A stretch of DNA of 35,271 bases from a virus: IMG/VR virus record IMGVR_UViG_3300037502_001792, positions 1 through 35,271 of that record; one strand, 5' to 3'. Of this stretch, positions 408-24,903 are shown in pieces (position 1 is the stretch's first letter; each line of letters opens with the position of its first letter). Under the pieces are notes generated by a model that was given only the letters and a program-made list of their open reading frames with translations, was not told the origin of the DNA and searched no databases. The translations under genes and the position numbers were made by a program.

Positions 408-1364
408 TTAAGCGTAAATTACACCCTGGAGAACCGGAGCAGAGCAGCAAAGGTTTCCTTCAACGATAATAACCGTGAAGAAAGCATCCTGGTCAACTGG
501 TCGGTCCATAGTTGGCGTAAGTGGCTTGAAGTCAGCTCCACGAACAAGGTCGATTGTCCAATAGTTAGTATTGAGCAATCGGCACGAGTTAGTTTCGAGA
601 ACTGCAGAACCGTATCCACCATCGAATACAAAGTCGCAACCATCGTAGCTGAGCTTGCGGAATCCAGCCTTAGCTTCCTTGGTAGGGAGATGAATACGCT
701 GAATTGCAGTCAGGGATGAGTGCAGGTACTTCCATGCAGTGCGGTCCATGATTCCAAGGTCAGGCTGCTCATCGCCACGAGTCAATCGGCTGATTGCATC
801 GGTGATATTCTCCTGAATGTTGGAAGCAGAAAGAGTTACGTTGATTGCAAGGTTACGAGCAAACGCGTTGCTTGTACGATCAATCTTTCCGTAAGTTCCC
901 GACGAAGGTGAAGTCGAAACAGCCTTCTTCAACCCGTCAAACTCCATACCGCCAAACGCAGTTCCATCTCCACGAAGGGAAGCGGAATACACGTTCTTAA
1001 GTCGGCTAACGGCAGCCTCAACCTTGCTCTCAGCAAGATCAAGAAGCTGTGCCTCATCGCGGTTAGCTCGTCGCTCACGGCCACTCATCGCTACAGGCTC
1101 ATAGAGCTGCTTAATGCCAAACTGAAATGCAGTCAGGTCATCAATTGATGAAAGGTCAAAAGACTGATAGCCAGAGTAAAAACCTCCAACTGGCACGTCA
1201 TTGTACATGACGGGCTTTCGAAGTTCATAACCACCAGAAATACGCTTAATTCGTCCAGCATCCTGCAAAGCAGCCGAGAACGGGTGATGCGCGGTTACAA
1301 CATCCGCGATATCGTCCGACTGATCAAAGAGGGTTGCTACGAGTGCCTCTTCTAAATTAGCCAT
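408..1364 (-). CDS. Major capsid protein
   Basis: This 318-residue protein is the building block of the head. It follows the scaffold gene and precedes small decoration-like genes, the standard place for the capsid gene. The N-terminus has a long acidic and hydrophobic helix (residues 1-30), then a basic, Gly/Tyr-rich segment (SGGYELRKPV, near 43-52) and a long helical middle (about 90-130) with RRANRDEAQLLDLAESKVEAA-like spacing, as in HK97-fold capsid proteins of podoviruses. The C-terminal half is beta-rich. The start has an AAGGGAT Shine-Dalgarno that lies inside an inverted repeat (see 1369-1393). The fold assignment is by overall resemblance; the identity as capsid is well supported by synteny. 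Confidence 0.85.
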   Translation of the reverse strand: MANLEEALVATLFDQSDDIADVVTAHHPFSAALQDAGRIKRISGGYELRKPVMYNDVPVGGFYSGYQSFDLSSIDDLTAFQFGIKQLYEPVAMSGRERRANRDEAQLLDLAESKVEAAVSRLKNVYSASLRGDGTAFGGMEFDGLKKAVSTSPSSGTYGKIDRTSNAFARNLAINVTLSASNIQENITDAISRLTRGDEQPDLGIMDRTAWKYLHSSLTAIQRIHLPTKEAKAGFRKLSYDGCDFVFDGGYGSAVLETNSCRLLNTNYWTIDLVRGADFKPLTPTMDRPVDQDAFFTVIIVEGNLCCSAPVLQGVIYA

Positions 1365-1368
1365 TTTA

Positions 1369-1393
1369 TTATCCCTTATACGTTATGGGATAA
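1369..1393 (-). promoter_or_regulatory. Hairpin covering the capsid gene ribosome-binding site
   Basis: TTATCCC (1369-1375) and GGGATAA (1387-1393) form a perfect 7 bp inverted repeat with an 11-base AT-rich loop. In the leftward mRNA the GGGAU of one arm is also the likely Shine-Dalgarno of the capsid gene, whose ATG follows a few bases later. There is no U-run, so it is not a terminator. It could control capsid translation or be an RNA-processing site; both are inference. Confidence 0.55.
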
Positions 1394-1401
1394 CTTTACG
1401 G

Positions 1402-2433
1402 CTATTCTCCGTGGAAACGCCGCTTCAGGTTATCCCTAAATGTTTGTGCGTGTACCCTGGGAGTTCCGCTGCCAGCAGAGCCAGATATTGATTTTGCAGC
1501 TTGTTTTGCCTTTTGAGCTACTGCTTGCTGCTGTTGGATAACCGGCCCTGTGGTCATCTTTTGCATGATGCCGGAGAAGGTCGGGTTACCATTAACGACA
1601 TAGTTGTATGCAGTTTCAAGGACCTCTTCAGCGCTAGAATACCTGCCGGTTGCGTTAAGAGCTTGAACTACTGGAGCCATTTCAGCCTCTAACTGCGAAG
1701 CTGTTTCCGGGTCCTTAAACAACGGTTTGCCGTTCATAAACAATTCTACGACACGCTGGTTGTATAGCTCAAGAGCCTTTTTCTCTTGCTCTTGCGCAAT
1801 CGACTCGTACTTCTCTGCAGCAATACGCTCTGCCTCTTCCCTTGTAAGGTAATTTGTTGGCTGCTCGTATTGCTGTGCTGGCTGGTCCAAAAGCTGGTTT
1901 ATATCTACGCCGTAGGACTGCAACCACTCCATAGCGGTGCCGATAGGATCATTCTTCATAGCTCTATCCCAGGCTATGGACCGCCTAGCAATATCGCTTA
2001 CACTAATACCCTCCTTGGCATAGTCGTCTTCGTACTGTTTAATTACGTCATAGACTGACTGATTGTGCTTATGCAGTTGATTTACTTCCTGCATTTTTCG
2101 GTCGTATTGCATACGAGTCTCGTATGCGCGTCGGTTGAGGTATTGTTGTAAAACATGGGCGTTTTGAGCCGAAGGATTAAGAAAAGCCTCCTTTTCCGAT
2201 GCGTTCATATCGCTTGGCGGTACGAGCAACGGGCGCTCTGCCTGTGGCGCTTGCTGTTCAACCGGCGTACTTTGTTCTACTTCGCCACTGGTTTCTTGCT
2301 TGGAAACTTCCTCTTTTTCCTCTTGGCGATCGCTATTCAACTGTTGTTTTAATGTTTCCCTAATAGACAGGGTGGCTGGCTCACGTTGAACTACTACCTC
2401 AGTGGATTCTGCTGATTGGTTATTATCTTCCAT
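1402..2433 (-). CDS. Capsid scaffold protein
   Basis: This 343-residue, strongly hydrophilic protein is rich in Gln and Glu. It is predicted to be mostly helical, with coiled-coil-like stretches (about 90-135 and 190-230). The first 80 residues are acidic and disordered, and the C-terminus is basic (RDNLKRRFHGE). An acidic N-terminal part, a helical core and a short basic tail immediately upstream of the capsid gene are the usual marks of a podovirus scaffold protein, whose basic C-terminal helix binds the coat subunit. The start overlaps the preceding gene by 11 bases, suggesting translational coupling. No protease is visible, so the scaffold may leave intact as in P22. Confidence 0.75.
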   Translation of the reverse strand: MEDNNQSAESTEVVVQREPATLSIRETLKQQLNSDRQEEKEEVSKQETSGEVEQSTPVEQQAPQAERPLLVPPSDMNASEKEAFLNPSAQNAHVLQQYLNRRAYETRMQYDRKMQEVNQLHKHNQSVYDVIKQYEDDYAKEGISVSDIARRSIAWDRAMKNDPIGTAMEWLQSYGVDINQLLDQPAQQYEQPTNYLTREEAERIAAEKYESIAQEQEKKALELYNQRVVELFMNGKPLFKDPETASQLEAEMAPVVQALNATGRYSSAEEVLETAYNYVVNGNPTFSGIMQKMTTGPVIQQQQAVAQKAKQAAKSISGSAGSGTPRVHAQTFRDNLKRRFHGE

Positions 2434-2749
2434 TTCTATACCTATCTATTACTTGGTTATGGATTTGTTTGACTAAACGCCGCTCTGCTTGTTTCGCCTC
2501 TTTTTCCGGCGAGTAGCCTCGGTCGTACGCGTCGCCAATCTCGATTGCCCCTGCCGCCTTGTAAGCCGCTCGTAGCTTCGATTTGCTTGTGTATACTTCT
2601 TTTGGATTAAGTGGGTTTTTGGTGGGAGCCATTTCATCTTGAATAAACAAGTCACGAGCGTTTGATACAACCCGCTTGGCTACTTGTTCTATTGGCACAA
2701 CCTTTTGTTTAACTGGACACCATTGAAACAACCTATATTTTTCACTCAT
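2423..2749 (-). CDS. Conserved phage head-region protein, unknown function
   Basis: A 108-residue basic protein. The middle segment YTSKSKLRAAYKAAG (about 54-68), followed by AIEIGD, resembles a motif seen in small proteins next to capsid genes in many podoviruses, but I cannot assign a function. The C-terminal 35 residues are charged and helical. It is packed tightly in the late unit, overlapping the upstream gene by 4 bases (ATGA type) and the scaffold gene by 11. A virion or assembly role is inferred from position. Confidence 0.7.
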   Translation of the reverse strand: MSEKYRLFQWCPVKQKVVPIEQVAKRVVSNARDLFIQDEMAPTKNPLNPKEVYTSKSKLRAAYKAAGAIEIGDAYDRGYSPEKEAKQAERRLVKQIHNQVIDRYRNGR

Positions 2750-3243
2750 TCATCCTCCATCGTTGTTAGCAAAAATAGGATTTTCATTCGTTTACGATTA
2801 CGCTGTTTGCGTTGTTCTTCGGCAATTTCTGCCTGTCGAATTGCAGCAACATACGCTTTTTGCTCTGCCATCAACGCTTGCTGCCTGGCTTCTTCTGCCG
2901 CTTTGTACTCCGCAATTTTTGCGTAGTATTCGGCAACAACTGCATCAACTTGAGCTTTAATTTCCTCAGTGTATTCAAATTGAGGACTGACGTTTAATGC
3001 TTCATTTGCAACGGCTTCAACCGCTGCTTCAACAGTAGCGCCTTCATTTAGTTGACGCTCAAGGAGTGCTTTGAGATTAAGCTCTTTACGCTTCCTGCGT
3101 TTTGCTTTTGGGAGTTTGCCTTGTAGAAGCTGTGCAGCTAACTCTATTTCCCAATCCGCTTCAGACTTACGACGACGAAAACCATCAGGGTCAAGTATTT
3201 GAACCTGTAGTAAACTTTGTCGTGGATTGAGAAATATCAGCAT
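2746..3243 (-). CDS. Helical, charged protein of the head gene cluster
   Basis: A 165-residue protein dominated by Ala, Glu, Lys and Gln. Residues about 65-150 look like one long amphipathic helix or coiled coil (AEYYAKIAEYKAAEEARQQA region), and the N-terminal third is basic. It shares one base with the upstream gene and 4 bases with the downstream gene, so it is co-translated with the head genes. I recognise no family; a structural or assembly-chaperone role is a guess from context. Confidence 0.7.
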   Translation of the reverse strand: MLIFLNPRQSLLQVQILDPDGFRRRKSEADWEIELAAQLLQGKLPKAKRRKRKELNLKALLERQLNEGATVEAAVEAVANEALNVSPQFEYTEEIKAQVDAVVAEYYAKIAEYKAAEEARQQALMAEQKAYVAAIRQAEIAEEQRKQRNRKRMKILFLLTTMEDE

Positions 3244-3530
3244 TAGGCATCTATAATTTCAGCAACTACCGTATGTGTGTCCATGTATTGAGCTTGAACT
3301 GCTTTTACCTGCTCCTCACCGGCCAAACCGTAGTAAACGCTTAAAGCGTTAGTAATCATAGTTTGGAACATAGCAGCAACGGCTGCTGTGCAAACCTGCT
3401 TCAAAAGGTAATCAGCAGCGGTCACATTTGGAAACTCAGTTTCTGAATACCCATGCACCTTTGCAATAATTTCCAAATACGGTTCAAAGCCTTCTGGTAG
3501 CGGCAATTCAAATACAATTCGTGCTTTCAT
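3243..3530 (-). CDS. Small unknown protein of the late unit
   Basis: A 95-residue, mildly acidic protein with a hydrophobic, Ala-rich helix in the middle (about 50-72). The hydrophobic stretch is interrupted by polar residues, so it is probably amphipathic and not a membrane span. It overlaps the thioredoxin-like gene by 4 bases (ATGA) and abuts the next gene by 1 base, so it belongs to the same translational chain. No recognisable domain. Confidence 0.65.
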   Translation of the reverse strand: MKARIVFELPLPEGFEPYLEIIAKVHGYSETEFPNVTAADYLLKQVCTAAVAAMFQTMITNALSVYYGLAGEEQVKAVQAQYMDTHTVVAEIIDA

Positions 3531-4030
3531 CGTGTTAGCTCCGCAATACCTTTGTTAATCTCAGCGAGCTTGTTACCCATCAACTCCATGTTGTAGGTAA
3601 GTTCTCCGCGCTGTGCAAAAAGGTTGATAAGTTTTTGCTTTTTGTCGTTCGCTACTTTTTCTTCCTGCTGAATCTTGCTTGGAATTACCTCGCCAGTAGC
3701 AAGCCAATGTGCGAGCGAATCAGAATAAAGCATACCAAAGTGGCGGTATTTAAGTTCGCCGCGTTCAAATACAAACAACGCCGGAACGGAGTCTTTGACC
3801 ACATCGGACTTATCCATTTTCATCCAAGTGCGTTTGAACTCGGATGGTTTAGGAGTCTTGTCCATTGGATGTGACACTTCCAATGCTCCACAATCAAAAG
3901 CTGATAGATCTACCTTTGCTAAATGATCATTCAACCTGTCGCAGTAAGGACAATTTTTTGCCCATACTTTAACTAAAACAAGTTCATTTTTAATAAACTC
4001 TTTTGCGGTCTCTTCCGTTAATTGCAACAT
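3527..4030 (-). CDS. Thioredoxin-fold protein with CPYC active site
   Basis: A 167-residue protein whose first ~115 residues have the thioredoxin layout: a beta strand (VLVKVWAKN), the redox motif C27-P-Y-C30, and the cis-proline strand (SVPALFVF, about 92-99). CPYC is the glutaredoxin-type dithiol motif. A charged coiled-coil-like tail (about 120-167) is added at the C-terminus and is not part of the usual fold. The gene starts 12 bases after the stop of the cysteine-rich fibre gene, in the late unit. This suggests it acts on disulfides of that fibre or assists virion assembly in the cytoplasm. The redox fold is well supported; the partner is inference. Confidence 0.85.
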   Translation of the reverse strand: MLQLTEETAKEFIKNELVLVKVWAKNCPYCDRLNDHLAKVDLSAFDCGALEVSHPMDKTPKPSEFKRTWMKMDKSDVVKDSVPALFVFERGELKYRHFGMLYSDSLAHWLATGEVIPSKIQQEEKVANDKKQKLINLFAQRGELTYNMELMGNKLAEINKGIAELTR

Positions 4031-4042
4031 TCATTCTCCAAG

Positions 4043-6022
4043 TTATTTACCAAATACATACCAGTTTTGACTAAGAACATAGGCACCAGAGCATCCTGAG
4101 TAATAGGTTGCTGCTTCGCAAGTTGTTTGATCCCCGTAACCAGAACACGACGGATCTCCTTCGCAAAGGCTATCAATGCTGTTCCAAGTGCAGTTTGAGT
4201 AACTTTGTGTGCATCCTGCTGTTGTTCCGCACGTCGCTTCATTCAAGCCGGAGCATGATTCAACTCGGCGAAATGGACTTATGTGCACCCAATCTTTGAA
4301 ATTACTCAGCGTGTACGAAGTCGTGTGATTTATTTGCTGAGTGCCGTAGGGGACAATAATCACATCATTATTTGCAGAACTTGCATTATAGACCCAATAG
4401 TCTCTGTCAGGACAGGTGTTCATGTCTGGCAGTGTTAATGTAATAGCGGTTTGCCAAGTGCATCCAGGCTCGGCGTTGCAATTTGTTGAATCATCAATGC
4501 CGCCACAAGCTGCCGTTCCGCTGCATGACGCGCCGTAAGTGCCGGTACAGTTGCCAGTCGCATACGTTCCAGTACACGAATACGAATCGTAAGTTCCAGA
4601 ACAACTAACGTACCAAGACCCACCAGTACAAGCGCCAGTGCCGCTATCATAGGTACAATAACTACCACCATTTGCTGCATTACAAGCTGTGCCGTCACCG
4701 CCACCATCGCTGTAATTAGAACAATCATCAAAGTTTTGCGTACATCCGCTAGTAGACCCACACGCTGTTTCATCCAGGCTAGAACAGTCTTGCGGCGTGT
4801 TAGTCCAAGAACAGCCAGTGTAGCTTTCGCAGGTTCCTTGATCGCCAAAAGCTGAGCACGATGCCTGCTCCCAAGTACAGCCAGTTTGCCCTTCGCATCC
4901 ACTTTGGTCGCCATTGAAAGTGCTGCATGAATAACCTGCAAACCACGAGCATCCACCGTGAGCATCACGAGCAAGACAATCGGTTTCGTTTGTGTATGAA
5001 GAACAAGCGTTTGTAGGAACTCCACTACAAACAGCGGTCGCTGGATCTGCAATCCATTCTGTTGCGGTGTTATCAAGAGTCTGATTAGCTGTAACGTACT
5101 TTACTCGAAGTGCTGTACCACCTGAACTTACTAGCGTACTTGTAGGAGCTGATGTACCACCTGCATATACACCCTGTTGAAAACCGCCATAGCCGTAATG
5201 CGCGAATGCTGCTTGTACGTTGTAACTGATGAGTGTATTGGTAGGTTGGTAGTAAACTGCTTGACCGTTCCCACCGCTGATCCAAGTGGAAACCTCACCA
5301 CTTGAGTTGACTCCTATATGTCCTTTGTTAACTCCCCCAAATCTAAAATCCAGCCATGTGTAAGATCCACTGTTGTCAAACAGGGCGTGACGTGTGGTCC
5401 CTGGTTGCCCGTTCGATTTACCAGACGCTGCAATCGTAAGCACACCGCTAAATGCTGTGCCCTCAATGAGCATATTGCCCGATTGAACGTTGCCGCCAGT
5501 CAACAGTTTTGCAGATACGTTATCAATCGTTAATCGTGCTGTGTTACTTGGAGTAAATACCAATCCAGCAGAAGTGTTTGCGCATACAATTCGATAAGAA
5601 TATGTTCCGGCGGTTGTTAGTGTAGCAAGCGTATTCCCAGCAAAAGTTACCACCACGGAACCAGCGGTAAAGTTTGAGATAGTAAACGATACGTCAAATC
5701 GTTCACCTAGGTTAAGCGTGGGAGTTTGATTTAGCGTTGCAGTCCCATTTGACGTTTTTGATACAGAGTTGCTGCTGTATGCCCATCCAGCTCCAACATT
5801 CCATCCGGTTGCGCTTCCTGTAAACGATCCGTTTGTAATGCGCTCTGATGCACCCGATGCCACTGAAAGTGTGTCAGTAGAATCATTAAAATTAAAGTTT
5901 TGTGTATCTTGCGCAATTTGACCAGTCGCTCCACCAAACGCAACTCCGCCAGTTGTAAGAACTGGAACACCATCAACAGTCCAATCTAAATTACCTGTGA
6001 ACGGATTAAAAACGTAAGGCAT
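4043..6022 (-). CDS. Cysteine-rich tail fibre or spike protein
   Basis: A 659-residue protein. The N-terminus (MPYVFNPFTGNLDW) is typical of phage fibre proteins that attach through the first domain. Residues about 40-330 are Gly/Ser/Thr-rich beta repeats. Residues about 333-545 and 586-648 contain some 33 cysteines arranged in repeats of the form C-S-x(6-8)-C-x(4-6)-G-C-[ST]-[WQ], several with the core DQxxCExxTGCxW. Such modules are expected to be held by disulfides, in the manner of small extracellular PSI-like or EGF-like modules. The start abuts the preceding stop (TAATG type). Its position between portal and head genes is unusual for a receptor-binding fibre. A receptor-binding or surface-decoration role is inferred. 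Confidence 0.7.
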   Translation of the reverse strand: MPYVFNPFTGNLDWTVDGVPVLTTGGVAFGGATGQIAQDTQNFNFNDSTDTLSVASGASERITNGSFTGSATGWNVGAGWAYSSNSVSKTSNGTATLNQTPTLNLGERFDVSFTISNFTAGSVVVTFAGNTLATLTTAGTYSYRIVCANTSAGLVFTPSNTARLTIDNVSAKLLTGGNVQSGNMLIEGTAFSGVLTIAASGKSNGQPGTTRHALFDNSGSYTWLDFRFGGVNKGHIGVNSSGEVSTWISGGNGQAVYYQPTNTLISYNVQAAFAHYGYGGFQQGVYAGGTSAPTSTLVSSGGTALRVKYVTANQTLDNTATEWIADPATAVCSGVPTNACSSYTNETDCLARDAHGGCSWFAGYSCSTFNGDQSGCEGQTGCTWEQASCSAFGDQGTCESYTGCSWTNTPQDCSSLDETACGSTSGCTQNFDDCSNYSDGGGDGTACNAANGGSYCTYDSGTGACTGGSWYVSCSGTYDSYSCTGTYATGNCTGTYGASCSGTAACGGIDDSTNCNAEPGCTWQTAITLTLPDMNTCPDRDYWVYNASSANNDVIIVPYGTQQINHTTSYTLSNFKDWVHISPFRRVESCSGLNEATCGTTAGCTQSYSNCTWNSIDSLCEGDPSCSGYGDQTTCEAATYYSGCSGAYVLSQNWYVFGK

Positions 6023-6270
6023 TACGATCTCACAACAGAGGTAAGTGTTGAACCACTATATCCTAAAGTTAAAGTTGCAACCGTCACACTCGCTAGTTTG
6101 TAGGTAACACCAGTAAGGTTTGTTCCAGTGTATGAAAGTACAATTTCATCATGAGGCTGATTTACAAGCCCCTGTACCATTTCCTGATACACGTTACCAT
6201 TCCGAGTAACAGTTGCAACGGGAATGTCGGGATTGACGCTTGCAGCGGAATTGGAAACTACTGTACTCAT
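6022..6270 (-). CDS. Small beta-rich protein between portal and fibre
   Basis: An 82-residue protein rich in Thr, Val and Ser, with alternating hydrophobic residues (KLASVTVATLTLGYSG) that suggest a small beta domain. It overlaps the portal gene by 4 bases and the fibre gene by 1 base, so all three are coupled. It might be a fibre-attachment or head-surface protein. I do not recognise the family. Confidence 0.65.
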   Translation of the reverse strand: MSTVVSNSAASVNPDIPVATVTRNGNVYQEMVQGLVNQPHDEIVLSYTGTNLTGVTYKLASVTVATLTLGYSGSTLTSVVRS

Positions 6271-8885
6271 TCTTCAGTATCCTCAATCTCAATGCCTACG
6301 GGATTACCAGCTTCATCGCTAATTATCTTACCACGACGTTTCTTCGGCTTGCTTGGCTTTTCTTTTTCAATAACCATAGGCTTATCAGTTGTTACCATGA
6401 TAGCGCCTTGTGGCTGTCGCTGAAGCGTTTCCATGCTGAGACGAATCCGTTCAATAGACTGCTCGGATGCCAAACGTCGCTCCTCCATAAGTTTTTCAGC
6501 CTCGGATAGTTTAATGCGCATCTGCTCCAAATCCAGCTTTTGGATTTCAAGAATATGCTGCATCTGGCTGCTTTCCTGCTTAATAAGCGCTTTATCGGCT
6601 TCCGTTTGAGCGCCGGTCTGCACTTTTAGCATATCAACCTCAACGGCTGACTGTTTAACCTGCACCTCTTGCTGTTGAATAGCAATTTGCTGCATAGCCA
6701 TATACTCGGAGGACTGCTGCTTTTGAATTGCAAGTTGAGCCTCCAACTGGTCGCGTTGAGCTTTGAGTTGTTGGTTTTGCACTTCAATTTGATTTTTAAC
6801 CTGTCGGTCTTGTGCTTCCATTTGAGCAGTTTGAAGCCGAGCTTGTGCCTCAATCTGAGCAATCTGCAAGCGTCCTTGGACTTCAAGCATCGTTGGGTCT
6901 GGTGGAGGAGGTTGTTTAGCAGCCTCTTCCTTGGCTCGTGCGATTTCGCCAATTTGCTTGAGGGCTTTTGTAAAAATGCCATCTAGCTCCTTGCCGCCTT
7001 TGAACCGCCGAATCATGTTTTGGAAAAGGCTAATGCTAAACTCTGCAAGTGGTGGGTATTGATCAACAAGACCTCGCATTTGGTCAAAAAACGCACCAGC
7101 GGTTTGTATAAGTGCTGTGCCTTCTTGTTGTTGTTGCTGTTGATCAATAGCAACCATTGAATCAGAAGCAATTTGTATACGGTAGCAGCGCTTCTTGCTA
7201 TCGCGCAGAATCTCAATAATTTCTGCCTCAACTTTTTCGATTTCAGCTTCAGGATTGCCAGGCATTTGTGCTTCCATGCCCTCTGGCATTTCTGGCATAC
7301 CCTCTGGCTCCTCAACCGGCTCACCCCCAAACGGCATTTCTGGCTGTGGTACTTCCATGCCCATTGGCTGTGGCATTGGTGCTGACGGTTGTGATGGAAG
7401 TGTTTCTGCAATAAGCCTGTCGGCGTCTGCTACATCAAGGATTGTTTCTTCGTCAAACTGCTCGGCGATGATTGTACCCAGGTGCATAATTGCATCCGAG
7501 ACAAACTTGGTGAATTGATTCTGTCGAACAATTAACCCCATTGACGACCATTGGTTTTCCAACCTATTGGCCGTAGCTGACTTGTACTGCTCTGATGTGC
7601 CTCGAAGTAGGTCAGATACCTTTAAGGTTTCATAAAGCTGCTGTAGCGCATTCTGGCGGTTCTGCTGAAGGATATTGAGTACGTTTGCAAACTGCTCGAC
7701 CGGGGCAAACTCGATAGACCCTTGTAGTCCACCTCGGCCACGGTTAGACGGCCAGTTGTCGACCGGCAAGCCTTTCAAGTCATCCTCAAACAACTGTTGG
7801 AGCGTAAGCCCCATAGCTGAGTCAAAAACGAAGTTAGCTCGAACTGCCTGTGTCATGGCATGGATTCGAGTAGTTAGTCGCTCAACCTCAAGGATTTGAT
7901 CCTTAACGTGTGTGTAGTCTGAAACTGGAATTACGGAGTCTGGGTCAGTAGATTGACGAATTACGCTGCATGGATAAAACCGCTCAAACTTAATTGGCGG
8001 TTCCGACTCCTCAATGATAATTTTTTCGTAGTTAGCTTGAAGCCAATAGACCTTGTTTGTTGCTTCGCACCAGATTTCCCAAACCTCCGCCTTACCTTCG
8101 AGTTTTTCGTTTTTCTGGGTTACATCGCGGCGAGATAGCTCAGGAAAACTGTCGTAGTGCAGCTTGTCTGCTATTTCCAATCCGAATCGTTCTTCCACCT
8201 GGTAACGGTCAAGAAACGCTCGCTTGGCTTGCCATTCAATTTCACTTTCGTTTCGAGCATCCGAACAGCGGTAGTCGTTATACTGAACAACTTCAAGTAC
8301 GGCCTTTTCGTCGACCTTTTGTTCAACCTCAACCGATACCAGCAGAATATTGCCACCGGCTTCCTTTGCATTGGTAATGTCGCCGTCAAACGGCTGGCCG
8401 TCGGCGGTAAACATTGAGCCTGACGGGTCACGGATAATAGCTATCTCTTGGAATACCTTTTCAAACTTAGGCACATAACGCGCCCATAGTACGGCTTGAC
8501 CTGTTAAGAGAAACTGAAGTGCTGCGTTGTAGCCTACTTTGTCAAAATCGAAGTGAGTGTCCATCGAATACTGAGTGTTTCGCTCAATGACGACACTGCC
8601 TAATTCGTAGGGGATTCCACCAGCTCGCTTGCGCAGGTTTACTTCTGCTTTTGGTGTTGAACTATAAAACGCTGGTAGAAGTGTATTGACGCAGTACCAC
8701 CATACGTTCAAACGGCGTTGTGCATCTTTCAAACTCTCGATTTGTTTTAGTGCATTGTAAACGCGAATGGATTCTTCGGCTGCACGAACAAACTTTTCAT
8801 GTCGTTTTTCGGCTTCAAGGATTTGTGTTTTCCACCAGCGAGGCGAGTACTTTTTAACGGAATTAGCTGGCAATTTTATTTTCAT
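6267..8885 (-). CDS. Portal protein
   Basis: This 872-residue protein forms the dodecameric ring at the packaging vertex, on which the terminase docks and through which DNA passes. The N-terminal ~480 residues have the podovirus portal pattern: a helical wing (SPRWWKTQILEAEKRHEKF), LLPAFYSSTPKAEV, a clip/stem region and YKSATANRLENQW. Residues about 500-545 form a Pro/Met/Glu-rich flexible insert, followed by a six-glutamine run near 585. Residues about 640-830 form a long Gln/Glu/Lys helix, matching the C-terminal barrel of P22-type portals. It is longer than P22 portal (725 residues) because of the insert and tail. It lies directly after large terminase with a 4-base overlap. Confidence 0.88.
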   Translation of the reverse strand: MKIKLPANSVKKYSPRWWKTQILEAEKRHEKFVRAAEESIRVYNALKQIESLKDAQRRLNVWWYCVNTLLPAFYSSTPKAEVNLRKRAGGIPYELGSVVIERNTQYSMDTHFDFDKVGYNAALQFLLTGQAVLWARYVPKFEKVFQEIAIIRDPSGSMFTADGQPFDGDITNAKEAGGNILLVSVEVEQKVDEKAVLEVVQYNDYRCSDARNESEIEWQAKRAFLDRYQVEERFGLEIADKLHYDSFPELSRRDVTQKNEKLEGKAEVWEIWCEATNKVYWLQANYEKIIIEESEPPIKFERFYPCSVIRQSTDPDSVIPVSDYTHVKDQILEVERLTTRIHAMTQAVRANFVFDSAMGLTLQQLFEDDLKGLPVDNWPSNRGRGGLQGSIEFAPVEQFANVLNILQQNRQNALQQLYETLKVSDLLRGTSEQYKSATANRLENQWSSMGLIVRQNQFTKFVSDAIMHLGTIIAEQFDEETILDVADADRLIAETLPSQPSAPMPQPMGMEVPQPEMPFGGEPVEEPEGMPEMPEGMEAQMPGNPEAEIEKVEAEIIEILRDSKKRCYRIQIASDSMVAIDQQQQQQEGTALIQTAGAFFDQMRGLVDQYPPLAEFSISLFQNMIRRFKGGKELDGIFTKALKQIGEIARAKEEAAKQPPPPDPTMLEVQGRLQIAQIEAQARLQTAQMEAQDRQVKNQIEVQNQQLKAQRDQLEAQLAIQKQQSSEYMAMQQIAIQQQEVQVKQSAVEVDMLKVQTGAQTEADKALIKQESSQMQHILEIQKLDLEQMRIKLSEAEKLMEERRLASEQSIERIRLSMETLQRQPQGAIMVTTDKPMVIEKEKPSKPKKRRGKIISDEAGNPVGIEIEDTEE

Positions 8886-10297
8886 ATCTGGGTACGCGCC
8901 TGTCGTGCTCTCATTTTAGCAATATAGCTTTGAAGTTTAACTAACCCCTTACCAACTACATCTTGCGGTTGTTCCCATTTGGAATCAATCAACCGAGCTT
9001 TGCAGAGGTAGCGTAAAGCGTCTACGGCATGGTCGTTGCCAGTAGTGTCTAAGTCCTCTGGTGAGCGTTTGTCTATCGTCATGGATGGTAAAGTTTCCAA
9101 TAGGTATGGGCAACTAGCAAAGATGTACAGTAACGGCGGGTTGGACACTAGCCGTTGTCGGACCTGAGCCCAGCCTGATATGCGGTCATTATCGGCTGCA
9201 CGAAACGCAGGGTGTTTGTATTTGGAGAATACGGCAGTAAATTGGTCGTTAATGCTTGGTCCACCTTCATGACTGAAAATCGATGGGTCAGCTACTGCTA
9301 TTGCATTTTCTCCCACGGAAACTGAGGCAATTCGGTTAGCTTGTTCGACGTTATCGACTCCTTTTCCCCACATTTCGCGATAGATAACGATAGATCCCTT
9401 TGGATACGGTACCTCGTTACCTCTGTCATCACGTCCAGAACTAACAGCGCCCCAGACGGCAGCAAAAGGACTCCGATAACCCCAATCATACCCCAAATAA
9501 CGGGGCCAATGCTTTGGTATGTTGAAAGGAGCAACAATATGTTTAGAACTAAACTCTGGAAAATAACTGCCTTCATGGATCTCAAAATCTCCTTCTAACC
9601 AAGCGCGTACAAGTTCTGGGCTACCAACCATGTGCAGACGGTTGATGTATTCGGGGTCACGAGCGAGCAATATCTGGTTGTCTGTCACTCGACTGGGAAT
9701 GTATATGTAATCGAAGCCAGCTCCATTAGGTAAATCCTTCCGAAGTACCTTCATACCTTTTGGGGCTGGCTTTATGAACAACTCCTTTAGCCAAGAGTGC
9801 CCTATACCACCAGGGTTGAAGGTAAGGATGATTTGACCGCCTCCCTTGCCTCGTAGCGCTCCGAATAGCTTCCAGATACACGATGGGTCAGCATAGTTAC
9901 CAGCTTCTTCTATGGCGCAATCTGAGAGGTTCTGGCCCTGGTATTTCTCAGCATCAGCATCGTTAGCTAGTGGCCTAAACCGTAACCGACCACCATTGGG
10001 AAAAGTGAACTGCTTTTTCTGGTCCTGCCAGTGAGCGTTAAGGGGTAGGTAAATCTGCTTGGCTCGCTCAATTAAGTCATCGGCCTGGGGTAACTCTTTA
10101 CGGAAGAATATGGCGTTAAAGTCAGGTCCAAACTGCTCCTGTTTGACGGCAAACTTACCCAAAACCCCGTCAGTCTTCCCGCCACCACGAGCACCACCAT
10201 AGCCAATTAGCGTAATAGGACACGCTACCAAAGCCTCCTGCGGCCCAGCTTGAGGTGCCCATACAACCTGTTCATTTAAGCCTCGATTGTCGTTCAC
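8882..10297 (-). CDS. Terminase large subunit
   Basis: ATPase-nuclease motor that packages DNA into the head. Walker A is GGARGGGKT (about residues 34-42) and Walker B is CAIEEA (about 127-132). The C-terminal RNase H-like nuclease shows LGYDWG, VADPS and the late-acidic motif DHAVDALRY. I choose the GTG at 10297, giving 471 residues: it makes a GTGA overlap with the methyltransferase stop and has AGAGG about 10 bases upstream. The longer ATG frame from 10342 would overlap the methyltransferase by 49 bases. Gene order small terminase, large terminase, portal is standard. The packaging type (cos or headful) cannot be told here. Confidence 0.92.
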   Translation of the reverse strand: MNDNRGLNEQVVWAPQAGPQEALVACPITLIGYGGARGGGKTDGVLGKFAVKQEQFGPDFNAIFFRKELPQADDLIERAKQIYLPLNAHWQDQKKQFTFPNGGRLRFRPLANDADAEKYQGQNLSDCAIEEAGNYADPSCIWKLFGALRGKGGGQIILTFNPGGIGHSWLKELFIKPAPKGMKVLRKDLPNGAGFDYIYIPSRVTDNQILLARDPEYINRLHMVGSPELVRAWLEGDFEIHEGSYFPEFSSKHIVAPFNIPKHWPRYLGYDWGYRSPFAAVWGAVSSGRDDRGNEVPYPKGSIVIYREMWGKGVDNVEQANRIASVSVGENAIAVADPSIFSHEGGPSINDQFTAVFSKYKHPAFRAADNDRISGWAQVRQRLVSNPPLLYIFASCPYLLETLPSMTIDKRSPEDLDTTGNDHAVDALRYLCKARLIDSKWEQPQDVVGKGLVKLQSYIAKMRARQARTQI

Positions 10298-10938
10298 AAC
10301 GGCAATACCTCTTGGCGTAAGCGTTGAACGATTATATCGCAATATTTTTGCTCACGTTCTATGCCAATGCTTTTACGATTCATATCTTTAGCAGCTCTAA
10401 GCGTAGTTCCTGCGCCCGCAAATGGGTCTAAAATGCTTGCCACGGCTTTTTTTAGCTTAATATCGGCCTGACTGATGCACCATTTCATTACGTCTAACGG
10501 CTTTTGCGTTGGATGCCATCGCTGTTCAGGGCGTTTTCGCATACAACCGTTCCATAGGTAGTCAATTTTACGAACGGCACCAGGTAAGTTAGTCCAAGCT
10601 AATTCACAGTCGGCAAAGTCGCCTGTTATATGCTTATCCCAAACTAACCAACATGATGATGCTGGCATAGCATAGTAATTCCCGCCAAATACGATAGCTG
10701 GTTGAATAATGAGCCGATTAATTAAGTCCTGTGCTATGGGCTTGTTATCCCAATTATCATCACCATAATCTTTTGCAGGAACAAGTTTTCCTCTGCTCTT
10801 GTTAGCCCCAGCCGCTTCCCCTATCCCATAAGGCGGATCGGTAAGCACTAAATTAACTGGCTCTAAATGCGGTAGAATATCCTTACAATCCCCGTGGTAG
10901 AGAGTAACGTAATCATCCTGGTAGTAAGGTTTTATCAT
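10294..10938 (-). CDS. DNA adenine/cytosine-N4 methyltransferase (beta-class order)
   Basis: A 214-residue amino-methyltransferase that moves a methyl group from S-adenosylmethionine to an exocyclic amine in DNA. The catalytic motif DPPYG is near residue 34 and the AdoMet-binding motif DPFAGAGTT near 172. Motif IV before motif I is the beta-class arrangement. The short region between them, with HPTQKP, resembles small phage methyltransferases with no restriction partner. Specificity cannot be read from sequence. It overlaps both neighbours by 4 bases and sits inside the packaging genes, so it is made late, which suits marking or protecting progeny DNA. Confidence 0.88.
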   Translation of the reverse strand: MIKPYYQDDYVTLYHGDCKDILPHLEPVNLVLTDPPYGIGEAAGANKSRGKLVPAKDYGDDNWDNKPIAQDLINRLIIQPAIVFGGNYYAMPASSCWLVWDKHITGDFADCELAWTNLPGAVRKIDYLWNGCMRKRPEQRWHPTQKPLDVMKWCISQADIKLKKAVASILDPFAGAGTTLRAAKDMNRKSIGIEREQKYCDIIVQRLRQEVLPL

Positions 10939-18837: not shown

Positions 18838-18842
18838 TTTTT

Positions 18843-18915
18843 TGAGGTGTAGCTCAGTTGGTAGAGCGCTGGTCTGTTAAGCCGGTGGTCGTAGGTTCGA
18901 GTCCTACCGCCTCAG
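18843..18915 (+). tRNA. tRNA-Asn(GUU)
   Basis: A 73-base cloverleaf. The 7 bp acceptor stem TGAGGTG/CGCCTCA has U1-A72 and discriminator G73, as in bacterial tRNA-Asn. The D-arm is GCTC/GAGC, the anticodon loop CTGTTAA has GUU at 18876-18878, and the T-arm is GTAGG-TTCGAGT-CCTAC. The 3' CCA is not encoded. It lies between two early genes and presumably supplies Asn codons during infection. Confidence 0.95.
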
Positions 18916-18942
18916 TCAATTTACCGTAACATTGGAGGATAT

Positions 18943-19357: not shown

Positions 19358-19430
19358 GCAAAAAATAGCTCAACAGGCAGAGCGCTAGATGTCTAATCTG
19401 GAGTTATTGGTTCGAGTCCAATCTTTTGCC
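19358..19430 (+). tRNA. Degenerate tRNA, possibly tRNA-Arg(UCU)
   Basis: GCAAAA pairs with TTTTGC to form the acceptor. The D-arm is GCTC/GAGC with an AACAGGCA loop, the anticodon stem CTAGA/TCTGG, the variable loop has 4 bases and the T-arm is ATTGG-TTCGAGT-CCAAT. Stem geometry gives loop TGTCTAA and anticodon UCU (19392-19394), with A37 as expected for AGA codons. Odd points are G in place of the near-universal U33, one extra A between acceptor and D-arm (six A residues in a row) and an A-C mismatch at 7-66. It may be functional with altered properties or decaying. Confidence 0.55.
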
Positions 19431-19604
19431 CCCACTGGTATGTGGACCCATGGTCTTCAGAGACTTGAAATCTGAGGAATTCCGAGTAAGTGAACTGTGA
19501 AAAGGTAACGTCCGACTTAAACGATTAGAAGTACAATCGAACAGTTTTTACCCGATTGCCGACTAACCAACCCTCAGAATAGGCCCCTTGGTTTAGTCCA
19601 TCAC

Positions 19605-23501: not shown

Positions 23502-23887
23502 CGCACCTCCAAATCAGCCGTATCAATTCCATTCATCAACTGCATAAATGAACTCATCGCTGCTCGACTAGCTACAATGATGGCTTTGGGTCCAATCAGC
23601 CCATAAGACGTCCCAAGCAAAATACATCCATGAGTATCAGCATCGCTATTGCCAGCATGAATAAGTATGTCGCTGCGTCCTGGCACATCCTGCACCTTGT
23701 AGCATTCGCCAAACTTCAAAGACTGATGCTTTACCAGCTTATAGTGACCGCTAGGTATGCATGACACCATGCGCTCATTGTTGCGCCATTTGTCCTCAAG
23801 CGTAACGCAGACTGGACGCCCGTTGGCAGTAAGCACGCCAAACGTTGCATCCTGATACTCGCCAATCCGCGTTACCTTGAGCTTCAT
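23498..23887 (-). CDS. DUF5675-family protein
   Basis: A 129-residue protein matching DUF5675: TFGVLTANGRPVCVTLEDKWRNN near the start, IPSGHYKL, then DVPGRSDILIHAGNSDADTHGCILLG. The His and Cys of the last motif (IHxGN...GCxLLG) recall L,D-transpeptidase YkuD-type active sites, so a cell-wall role is possible. It is common in phage lysis regions. It overlaps both neighbours by 4 bases. Confidence 0.82.
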   Translation of the reverse strand: MKLKVTRIGEYQDATFGVLTANGRPVCVTLEDKWRNNERMVSCIPSGHYKLVKHQSLKFGECYKVQDVPGRSDILIHAGNSDADTHGCILLGTSYGLIGPKAIIVASRAAMSSFMQLMNGIDTADLEVR

Positions 23888-24903
23888 GCTTCCAGCGCCT
23901 CAATGCGAGCTTCCAATGCCGCAATTTTTTGTTGCGTTAATTCAGCAAACTCTTGAAACGCTTTGATCATACGCGATTCATTTTTGCCAAGCCCTGACAA
24001 TGTGTAAAACCCGTCTGGACCTTGCCCTACTAGGTCTGGGTATATCTCCTGCACTTCTTGAGCAATAAAACCAATTTGATGCCCTGAGCCGTCCTTGTAG
24101 TCAAACTCTACAGGCCGAAGGCTCATAATGTTGGCTAACTGCGAAGGTAGGTCAGTTATGTTTTCTTTTACTCTCTCATCAGATGTAGAGGTAAATGTCG
24201 CTTGGTTCGCTCCATTGGCTGTAATCGATCCAGAAGCAGCGTTGCCACCATTAATATAAAACAACGCAAATATATTTGAGGTAGTTGTGTTGTTATCAAA
24301 CTTGAAAAACCGAATAGCAGGGACACCAAGCCCTGCTGCGTTAATATATGCGTCAATCGCTGCCGTAGCATCTTTTACAACAGCCAATCGACCGCTCGGA
24401 CTAAATGGAAGTGTAGTTTGCCCGATAACAGAATCGCCGGTGCCAAACCAAGTTTGTCGTTGCACACTGTTGGTGCCAATACTTACCGGATTGGAACCGC
24501 TTTTGTTTATTTGTAGATATGTTGGAGCGCTAACAATTCGAGCAACCTCTGTGCCATCGGATTGAGTAAATAAAGTCACACCGACGTTATCACTCGCTCG
24601 TCCTCGTTGCGCTAATCCAATGGCATTTGTGCTTTCGCAAAGGGCATCAATAACACCAGCAGTCGGGGTGGCAGTTCCAACGCCTACGCGACTTATGTTC
24701 ATAGCTTGGTTATTGCCAAAGTTCAAATTACCAGCCATTGAGTTGCTACCGTCTTTGTTTAGGCATTGGTTAATGCCAGTAGCAAAGTCATTGTCTTGGG
24801 TATCGTGGCGACCAGCTTCAATGCCTATGCCAAGACTTGCATCGCCAGTCCATCCACCTGTACCAGCATTTCCCTTCGTATAACTTCCCGCTGCCCAAGG
24901 CAT
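23884..24903 (-). CDS. Tail fibre with S74 self-cleaving chaperone domain
   Basis: A 339-residue protein. The N-terminus (MPWAAGSYTKG, RHDTQDNDFATGINQCLNKDG) is the fibre head common in podoviruses. The middle is beta-rich (about 60-235). The C-terminal ~100 residues form a peptidase S74 intramolecular chaperone. TSDERVKENI (about residue 240) contains the Ser-Asp cleavage site and nearby Lys, then come RPVEFDYKDGSGHQIGFIAQEVQEIYPDLV and a final trimer-forming coiled coil. The domain helps the fibre fold as a trimer and is then cut off. It is likely the main receptor-binding protein. Confidence 0.87.
   Translation of the reverse strand: MPWAAGSYTKGNAGTGGWTGDASLGIGIEAGRHDTQDNDFATGINQCLNKDGSNSMAGNLNFGNNQAMNISRVGVGTATPTAGVIDALCESTNAIGLAQRGRASDNVGVTLFTQSDGTEVARIVSAPTYLQINKSGSNPVSIGTNSVQRQTWFGTGDSVIGQTTLPFSPSGRLAVVKDATAAIDAYINAAGLGVPAIRFFKFDNNTTTSNIFALFYINGGNAASGSITANGANQATFTSTSDERVKENITDLPSQLANIMSLRPVEFDYKDGSGHQIGFIAQEVQEIYPDLVGQGPDGFYTLSGLGKNESRMIKAFQEFAELTQQKIAALEARIEALEA

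Follow-up and report, generated by a model that had tools for sequence, protein, structure and literature searches.

The locus described here raises the question of why a phage should encode a fibre-like protein crowded with cysteines and, directly after it, a thioredoxin-fold protein (the redoxin), when phage virions are assembled in the reducing cytoplasm and phage adhesins are thought to manage without disulfides. The window, that is, the whole stretch of 35,271 bases analysed, is an uncultured phage record encoding a portal (PHROG 12082) and a major head protein (PHROG 9953). We think it probable that fibre and redoxin form a functional pair, in which the redoxin would serve as the dedicated thiol-disulfide helper of a disulfide-rich adhesin that is produced in the cytoplasm. 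On the minus strand, an 82-aa gene is followed by the 659-aa fibre-like gene, the 167-aa redoxin gene, genes of 95, 165, and 108 aa, a probable scaffold gene, and the head protein gene, and the Cys-rich fibre gene sits between the portal gene and those for the scaffold and major head protein; given this position, and a separate fibre gene in the tail-gene region, its product is at most a putative tail fibre. The genes of immediate concern are as follows.

6022-6270, minus strand: 82-aa protein, upstream of the fibre
4043-6022, minus strand: Cys-rich, 659-aa fibre-like protein with 34 Cys (open reading frame and relatives)
4031-4042, minus strand: 12-base gap between fibre and redoxin genes, with a ribosome-binding-like GGAG (sequence)
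3527-4030, minus strand: redoxin, thioredoxin-fold protein of 167 aa (open reading frame, Pfam, AlphaFold2, and Foldseek)
3243-3530, minus strand: 95-aa protein, downstream of the redoxin

The first-pass annotation had placed a CPYC thioredoxin-fold gene 12 bases from the fibre gene, and both the reading frame and the gap are confirmed. As for the small flanking genes, the 82-aa gene adjoins non-Cys fibres of the same slot too and so is not specific to the Cys-rich fibre, and the 95-aa gene is also present in L122, which has no redoxin, and so is not specific to the redoxin. An overlapping reading frame in another frame (4018-4242) is probably spurious, with tblastn matches only in L002-L007 and L010 and none in L008, L009, or L011-L016.

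The fibre-like protein can be divided into an N-terminal motif, a scaffold region, and two cysteine clusters.

5960-6022, minus strand: anchor-like N-terminal motif MPYVFNPFTGNLDW (sequence)
5030-5959, minus strand: fibre scaffold region, residues 22-331 (alignment, 33-71% identity among relatives)
4460-5029, minus strand: Cys cluster 1, residues 332-521, 24 Cys
4091-4255, minus strand: Cys cluster 2, residues 590-644, 8 Cys

The annotation had reported about 33 cysteines in a 659-residue fibre arranged in repeated C-S-x(6-8)-C-x(4-6)-GC-[ST]W modules. The fibre itself stands and the count is corrected to 34; the repeated modules are likewise present, but the formula is loose, as a few fit it strictly and in others the W or the first S is missing. 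The protein has no PHROG match, and the scaffold spliced without both clusters gives only a weak one (E 0.0085). A stretch of the scaffold region from about residue 60 looks like a jelly roll. Inspection of the sequence suggests that the clusters are insertions in a common fibre domain, cluster 1 apparently lying within the C-terminal beta domain and cluster 2 apparently being a second insertion ahead of the last strand (NWYVFG). Thirty-two of the 34 cysteines are in these two clusters, which are separated by an ordinary fibre segment, and cysteine makes up 10.5% of residues 332-644 compared with 0.7% in the remaining late proteins of the phage (6,197 residues). The motif MPYVFNPFTGNLDW is present also on same-slot non-Cys fibres (variants in L138, L145, and L077), and the fibres of L007, L010, L058, L160, and L161 have other N-termini in its place.

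The clustered cysteines are strongly conserved. In 16 aligned close relatives, 32 positions are invariant and only Cys 147, 171, and 537 vary. Among 17 non-redundant relatives, a set that takes in four more distant ones besides the 16 aligned, cluster 1 has 24 cysteines in every member and cluster 2 has eight in all but L161, which has four; the number is never odd. Relatives keep 28 to 32 clustered cysteines while identity in the Cys region falls to about 45%, and constant even totals at such divergence are as predicted for paired cysteines. In most relatives cluster 1 is better kept than the scaffold: compared with the window, L058 and L160 are 67-73% identical in cluster 1 and 42-48% in the scaffold, whereas L161 shows similar values for both (48 and 47%). 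Even numbers would suit metal sites as well, and the clusters might then bind metal instead of forming disulfides. We regard this as most improbable: C-x(1-3)-C is absent from all 17 fibres, which counts against zinc-knuckle-type sites, the cysteines of the window fibre are spaced by six or more, as in extracellular Cys arrays, and an accompanying redoxin fits thiols better than metal ligands.

Structure prediction for the Cys domain gave a model with a pLDDT of 47, for which there was no PDB match. The Paramecium surface antigen domain (PF01508), itself an extracellular array of Cys repeats, gave weak Pfam matches below the cut-off in three of seven members (best E 0.048; for L163, described below, 14.3 bits against a cut-off of 21.2). 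The likeness is not significant, and probably reflects convergent Cys spacing.

The redoxin carries the expected features of a dithiol enzyme, together with one addition.

3941-3952, minus strand: CPYC active site (residues 27-30), unchanged across 10 aligned relatives
3782-3784, minus strand: presumed cis-proline Pro83 (SVPA), by analogy with thioredoxins; V82-P83 invariant in 10 relatives
3533-3676, minus strand: single long C-terminal helix, residues 119-166 (AlphaFold2 secondary structure)

The match to Pfam Thioredoxin is below the curated cut-off (E 4e-4; 20.7 bits against 23.5), but the AlphaFold2 model (pLDDT 89.7) has a thioredoxin fold, and thioredoxins give the best Foldseek matches (E 4e-6, with a TM of 0.75 by target length). 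The C-terminal helix is missing from ordinary thioredoxins. Redoxins with CPYC tend to be weaker reductants than those with CGPC. The window redoxin has CPYC, as in dithiol glutaredoxins, rather than the CGPC of canonical thioredoxins, and one published account gives CPYC as the motif of one glutaredoxin class (PMC4844277). In the one measurable pair dN/dS is about 0.04, which indicates strong purifying selection on the redoxin; synonymous sites are otherwise saturated or nearly so.

Strong evidence for a pair comes from linkage. Most loci are metagenomic fragments, and the relatives are partly redundant. Sixteen window-type fibre loci, about 11 of them distinct, extend past the fibre gene, and in all 16 the redoxin is the next gene. 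Three further contigs (L018, L019, and L020) end before the redoxin position and are outside this count. Every match to the redoxin profile belongs to one of these fibre loci or lies on a contig truncated upstream of the redoxin. The pair is also found on quite different phage backbones: L003, L009, and L011 have portals only 24-26% identical to that of the window, and in L007 and L010 neither a portal nor a head-protein match is detectable; all five nevertheless carry both genes, with fibres 67-79% and redoxins 70-76% identical to those of the window.

The linkage extends to more distant fibres. All three that have downstream DNA (L058, L160, and L161), which have other fibre N-termini and other genome contexts (65% G+C around the gene in L058), have a diverged redoxin gene 10-18 bases further on, with active sites CPNC, CPNC, and CGNC, respectively. 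The L058 protein matches Pfam Thioredoxin above the cut-off (3e-9) and that of L161 matches Glutaredoxin (2e-8); that of L160 is below cut-off. We considered four independent recruitments of a redoxin, but this is unsupported because the L058 and L160 proteins and the L160 and L161 proteins are recognisably related (31% and 25% identity), and the three look like one deeply diverged family related in a chain. L161 provides an internal comparison (1040-4860), with two consecutive fibres sharing the same N-terminus: a 31-Cys fibre is followed by the glutaredoxin, and the other has neither cysteines nor a glutaredoxin after it.

To what extent the redoxin is specific to Cys-rich fibres can be judged from backbone relatives. 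A portal profile identified 267, of which 80 were fetched, and we compared those spanning the interval from the portal to the 108-aa gene, with forward open reading frames inspected. Twenty-six carry other fibre-like or different genes between the portal and the 95-, 165-, and 108-aa genes, and from this gene content the slot (4031-6022 in the window) is a swap site. None of the 26 has a redoxin there by family profile or CxxC scan, and none has a Pfam Thioredoxin or Glutaredoxin match anywhere in its record; all five Cys-fibre records in the same search have a Thioredoxin match. L122 is illustrative, as it keeps the flanking 82-aa, 95-aa, and 158-aa genes around a fibre with five cysteines and has no redoxin. 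The co-occurrence of Cys modules and redoxin, which the first-pass annotation had offered as a check, is borne out, at 16/16 window-type and 3/3 distant loci against 0/26 relatives with other fibres. Mapping on the portal tree gives a minimum of four changes in the Cys trait, and in all four independent pairs the redoxin changes alongside, a number too small for significance (p 0.125).

This distribution bears on whether the redoxin has its target elsewhere and is next to the fibre gene by accident. The usual roles of phage thioredoxins and glutaredoxins lie with ribonucleotide reductase, with the processivity of DNA polymerase (T7 being an example), or with takeover of host redox, and T4 NrdC and similar redoxins of nucleotide metabolism share the fold and CxxC of the protein described here. 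Such a role is nonetheless highly unlikely, given that a redoxin is missing from all 26 backbone relatives and present in Cys-fibre phages of several backbones. In contrast to NrdC-type proteins, the window redoxin is encoded behind an adhesin gene in a structural module and bears the C-terminal helix, and no ribonucleotide reductase large subunit was found in 10 records, some of which are fragments and possibly incomplete.

Although the two genes are tied by presence, they are not tied by allele. Distances between fibres do not track those between redoxins (Mantel r 0.02, p 0.42), and L005 and L006 have redoxins and portals 100% identical to those of the window, but fibres only 69% identical. 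We therefore reject the idea of fibre and redoxin as one allele block; alleles recombine, and presence alone is linked. This suits an enzyme recognising reactive cysteines generally, and less so a tightly co-evolved binding partner.

The redoxin is adjacent to and co-occurs with one fibre class, as expected of a fibre-specific assembly chaperone, and it could be mainly that, with the thioredoxin fold as a mere binding scaffold. Like lambda Tfa, T4 gp38/gp57A, and the S74 endosialidase chaperone, it is small and adhesin-specific, and its gene is directly after that of the adhesin, where such proteins are encoded or else fused; the extra helix would suit such a role, and allele-level co-evolution is not required for it. 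These known chaperones are not redox proteins, however, whereas the redoxin has an intact dithiol within a thioredoxin fold and follows only Cys-rich fibres, not other fibres of the same slot. Moreover, the CxxC and the aligned Pro are retained across all redoxin types as identity drops to 25-31% or less, and we consider a non-catalytic role unlikely.

One Cys-array protein has no redoxin. L163 encodes (5425-6930) a 501-aa protein with 36 cysteines in the same array, the N-terminus of which (MIRLLLFVVFFPVIALAQP) is, judged by eye, apparently a typical signal peptide. There is no redoxin in the following 745 bases, and the next gene has a membrane-spanning-like stretch. The protein is possibly secreted rather than part of the virion, and if exported to the oxidising periplasm it could use the host Dsb system. 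Because it apparently has a signal peptide, the missing redoxin fits a thiol-handling role and is not a refutation of it, although a single short contig is suggestive only. The earlier proposal of a redox protein dedicated to the Cys-rich fibre is thus strongly supported by co-occurrence, with the qualification of this one, apparently exported, exception.

How might the redoxin act in such a pair? The fibre would be an adhesin with an exposed C-terminal domain bearing two disulfide-rich arrays, with about 16 disulfides per chain. The chain has no signal peptide and would be synthesised in the reducing cytoplasm, where the arrays would be unstable in folding and liable to mispair. The redoxin would be translated right after the fibre, perhaps docked on it by the C-terminal helix, and its CxxC dithiol would react with fibre cysteines to clear premature or wrong disulfides, as a reductase or isomerase; the native disulfide set would then be completed at or after lysis. 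The redoxin would most likely serve to prevent or repair wrong fibre disulfides in the cytoplasm. Since disulfides are reduced in the host cytosol anyway, a plain reductase would duplicate an existing function, and an isomerase-like activity would add more. Because no Erv1/Alr-type sulfhydryl oxidase (PF04777) was found in 10 records, the oxidant after lysis would be oxygen or glutathione disulfide. An oxidation-triggered maturation of the fibre, as proposed in the first-pass annotation, would go further, with the redoxin holding the fibre reduced and floppy until lysis and oxygen make it rigid and receptor-competent, a timed step of virion maturation; we view this as possible but doubtful.

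The pair could instead act at entry, through a packaged or fibre-bound redoxin working on host-surface thiols, or through disulfide exchange between fibre and receptor. The redoxin accompanies an adhesin, and its helix could perhaps bind the virion, but its sequence gives no sign of packaging and there is no reductant outside the cell with which it could be recycled, making action at entry distinctly unlikely. A cytoplasmic helper for fibre disulfides has a parallel in the poxvirus E10R-A2.5L-G4L pathway, in which a virus-encoded thioredoxin-like protein works, on the cytoplasmic side, on disulfides in virion proteins (PMC1318495). That pathway includes an Erv-type oxidase (PMC1318495), unlike the phage records searched here, and it belongs to different viruses and is not homologous to the phage pair as a system. 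The phage pair resembles both the fibre-adjacent chaperones and the thioredoxin-like end of the poxvirus pathway, and is a member of neither.

We found no paper on such a phage fibre-redoxin pair in a search that left many subscription journals outside its scope. Relatives of the fibre number 19 in viral contigs, with none among 50,697 phage records; named phages provide no useful relative, and Microcystis phage Mwe-Yong1 matches weakly and in the scaffold alone. Two pattern scans of bacterial genome contigs, which distant relatives may escape, found no relative of the Cys modules, and matches of a module-pair DNA pattern to L059, L063, and L069 are chance matches. If the favoured reading is correct, the pair shows how a tailed phage gets round the limit set by a reducing cytoplasm, with an adhesin of about 16 disulfides on several phage backbones, and provides a natural system in which to study how disulfide proteins fold in the bacterial cytoplasm. 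A redoxin gene directly after an adhesin gene could also be a genetic marker for finding other disulfide-dependent phage proteins.

We note several other features of the window. A separate fibre gene with a C-terminal S74 chaperone domain is located in the tail-gene region (23884-24903), and an N6/N4 DNA methyltransferase gene (10294-10938) adjoins the terminase gene. The plus strand encodes two tRNAs, tRNA-Asn(gtt) at 18842-18917 and tRNA-Arg(tct) at 19358-19432.
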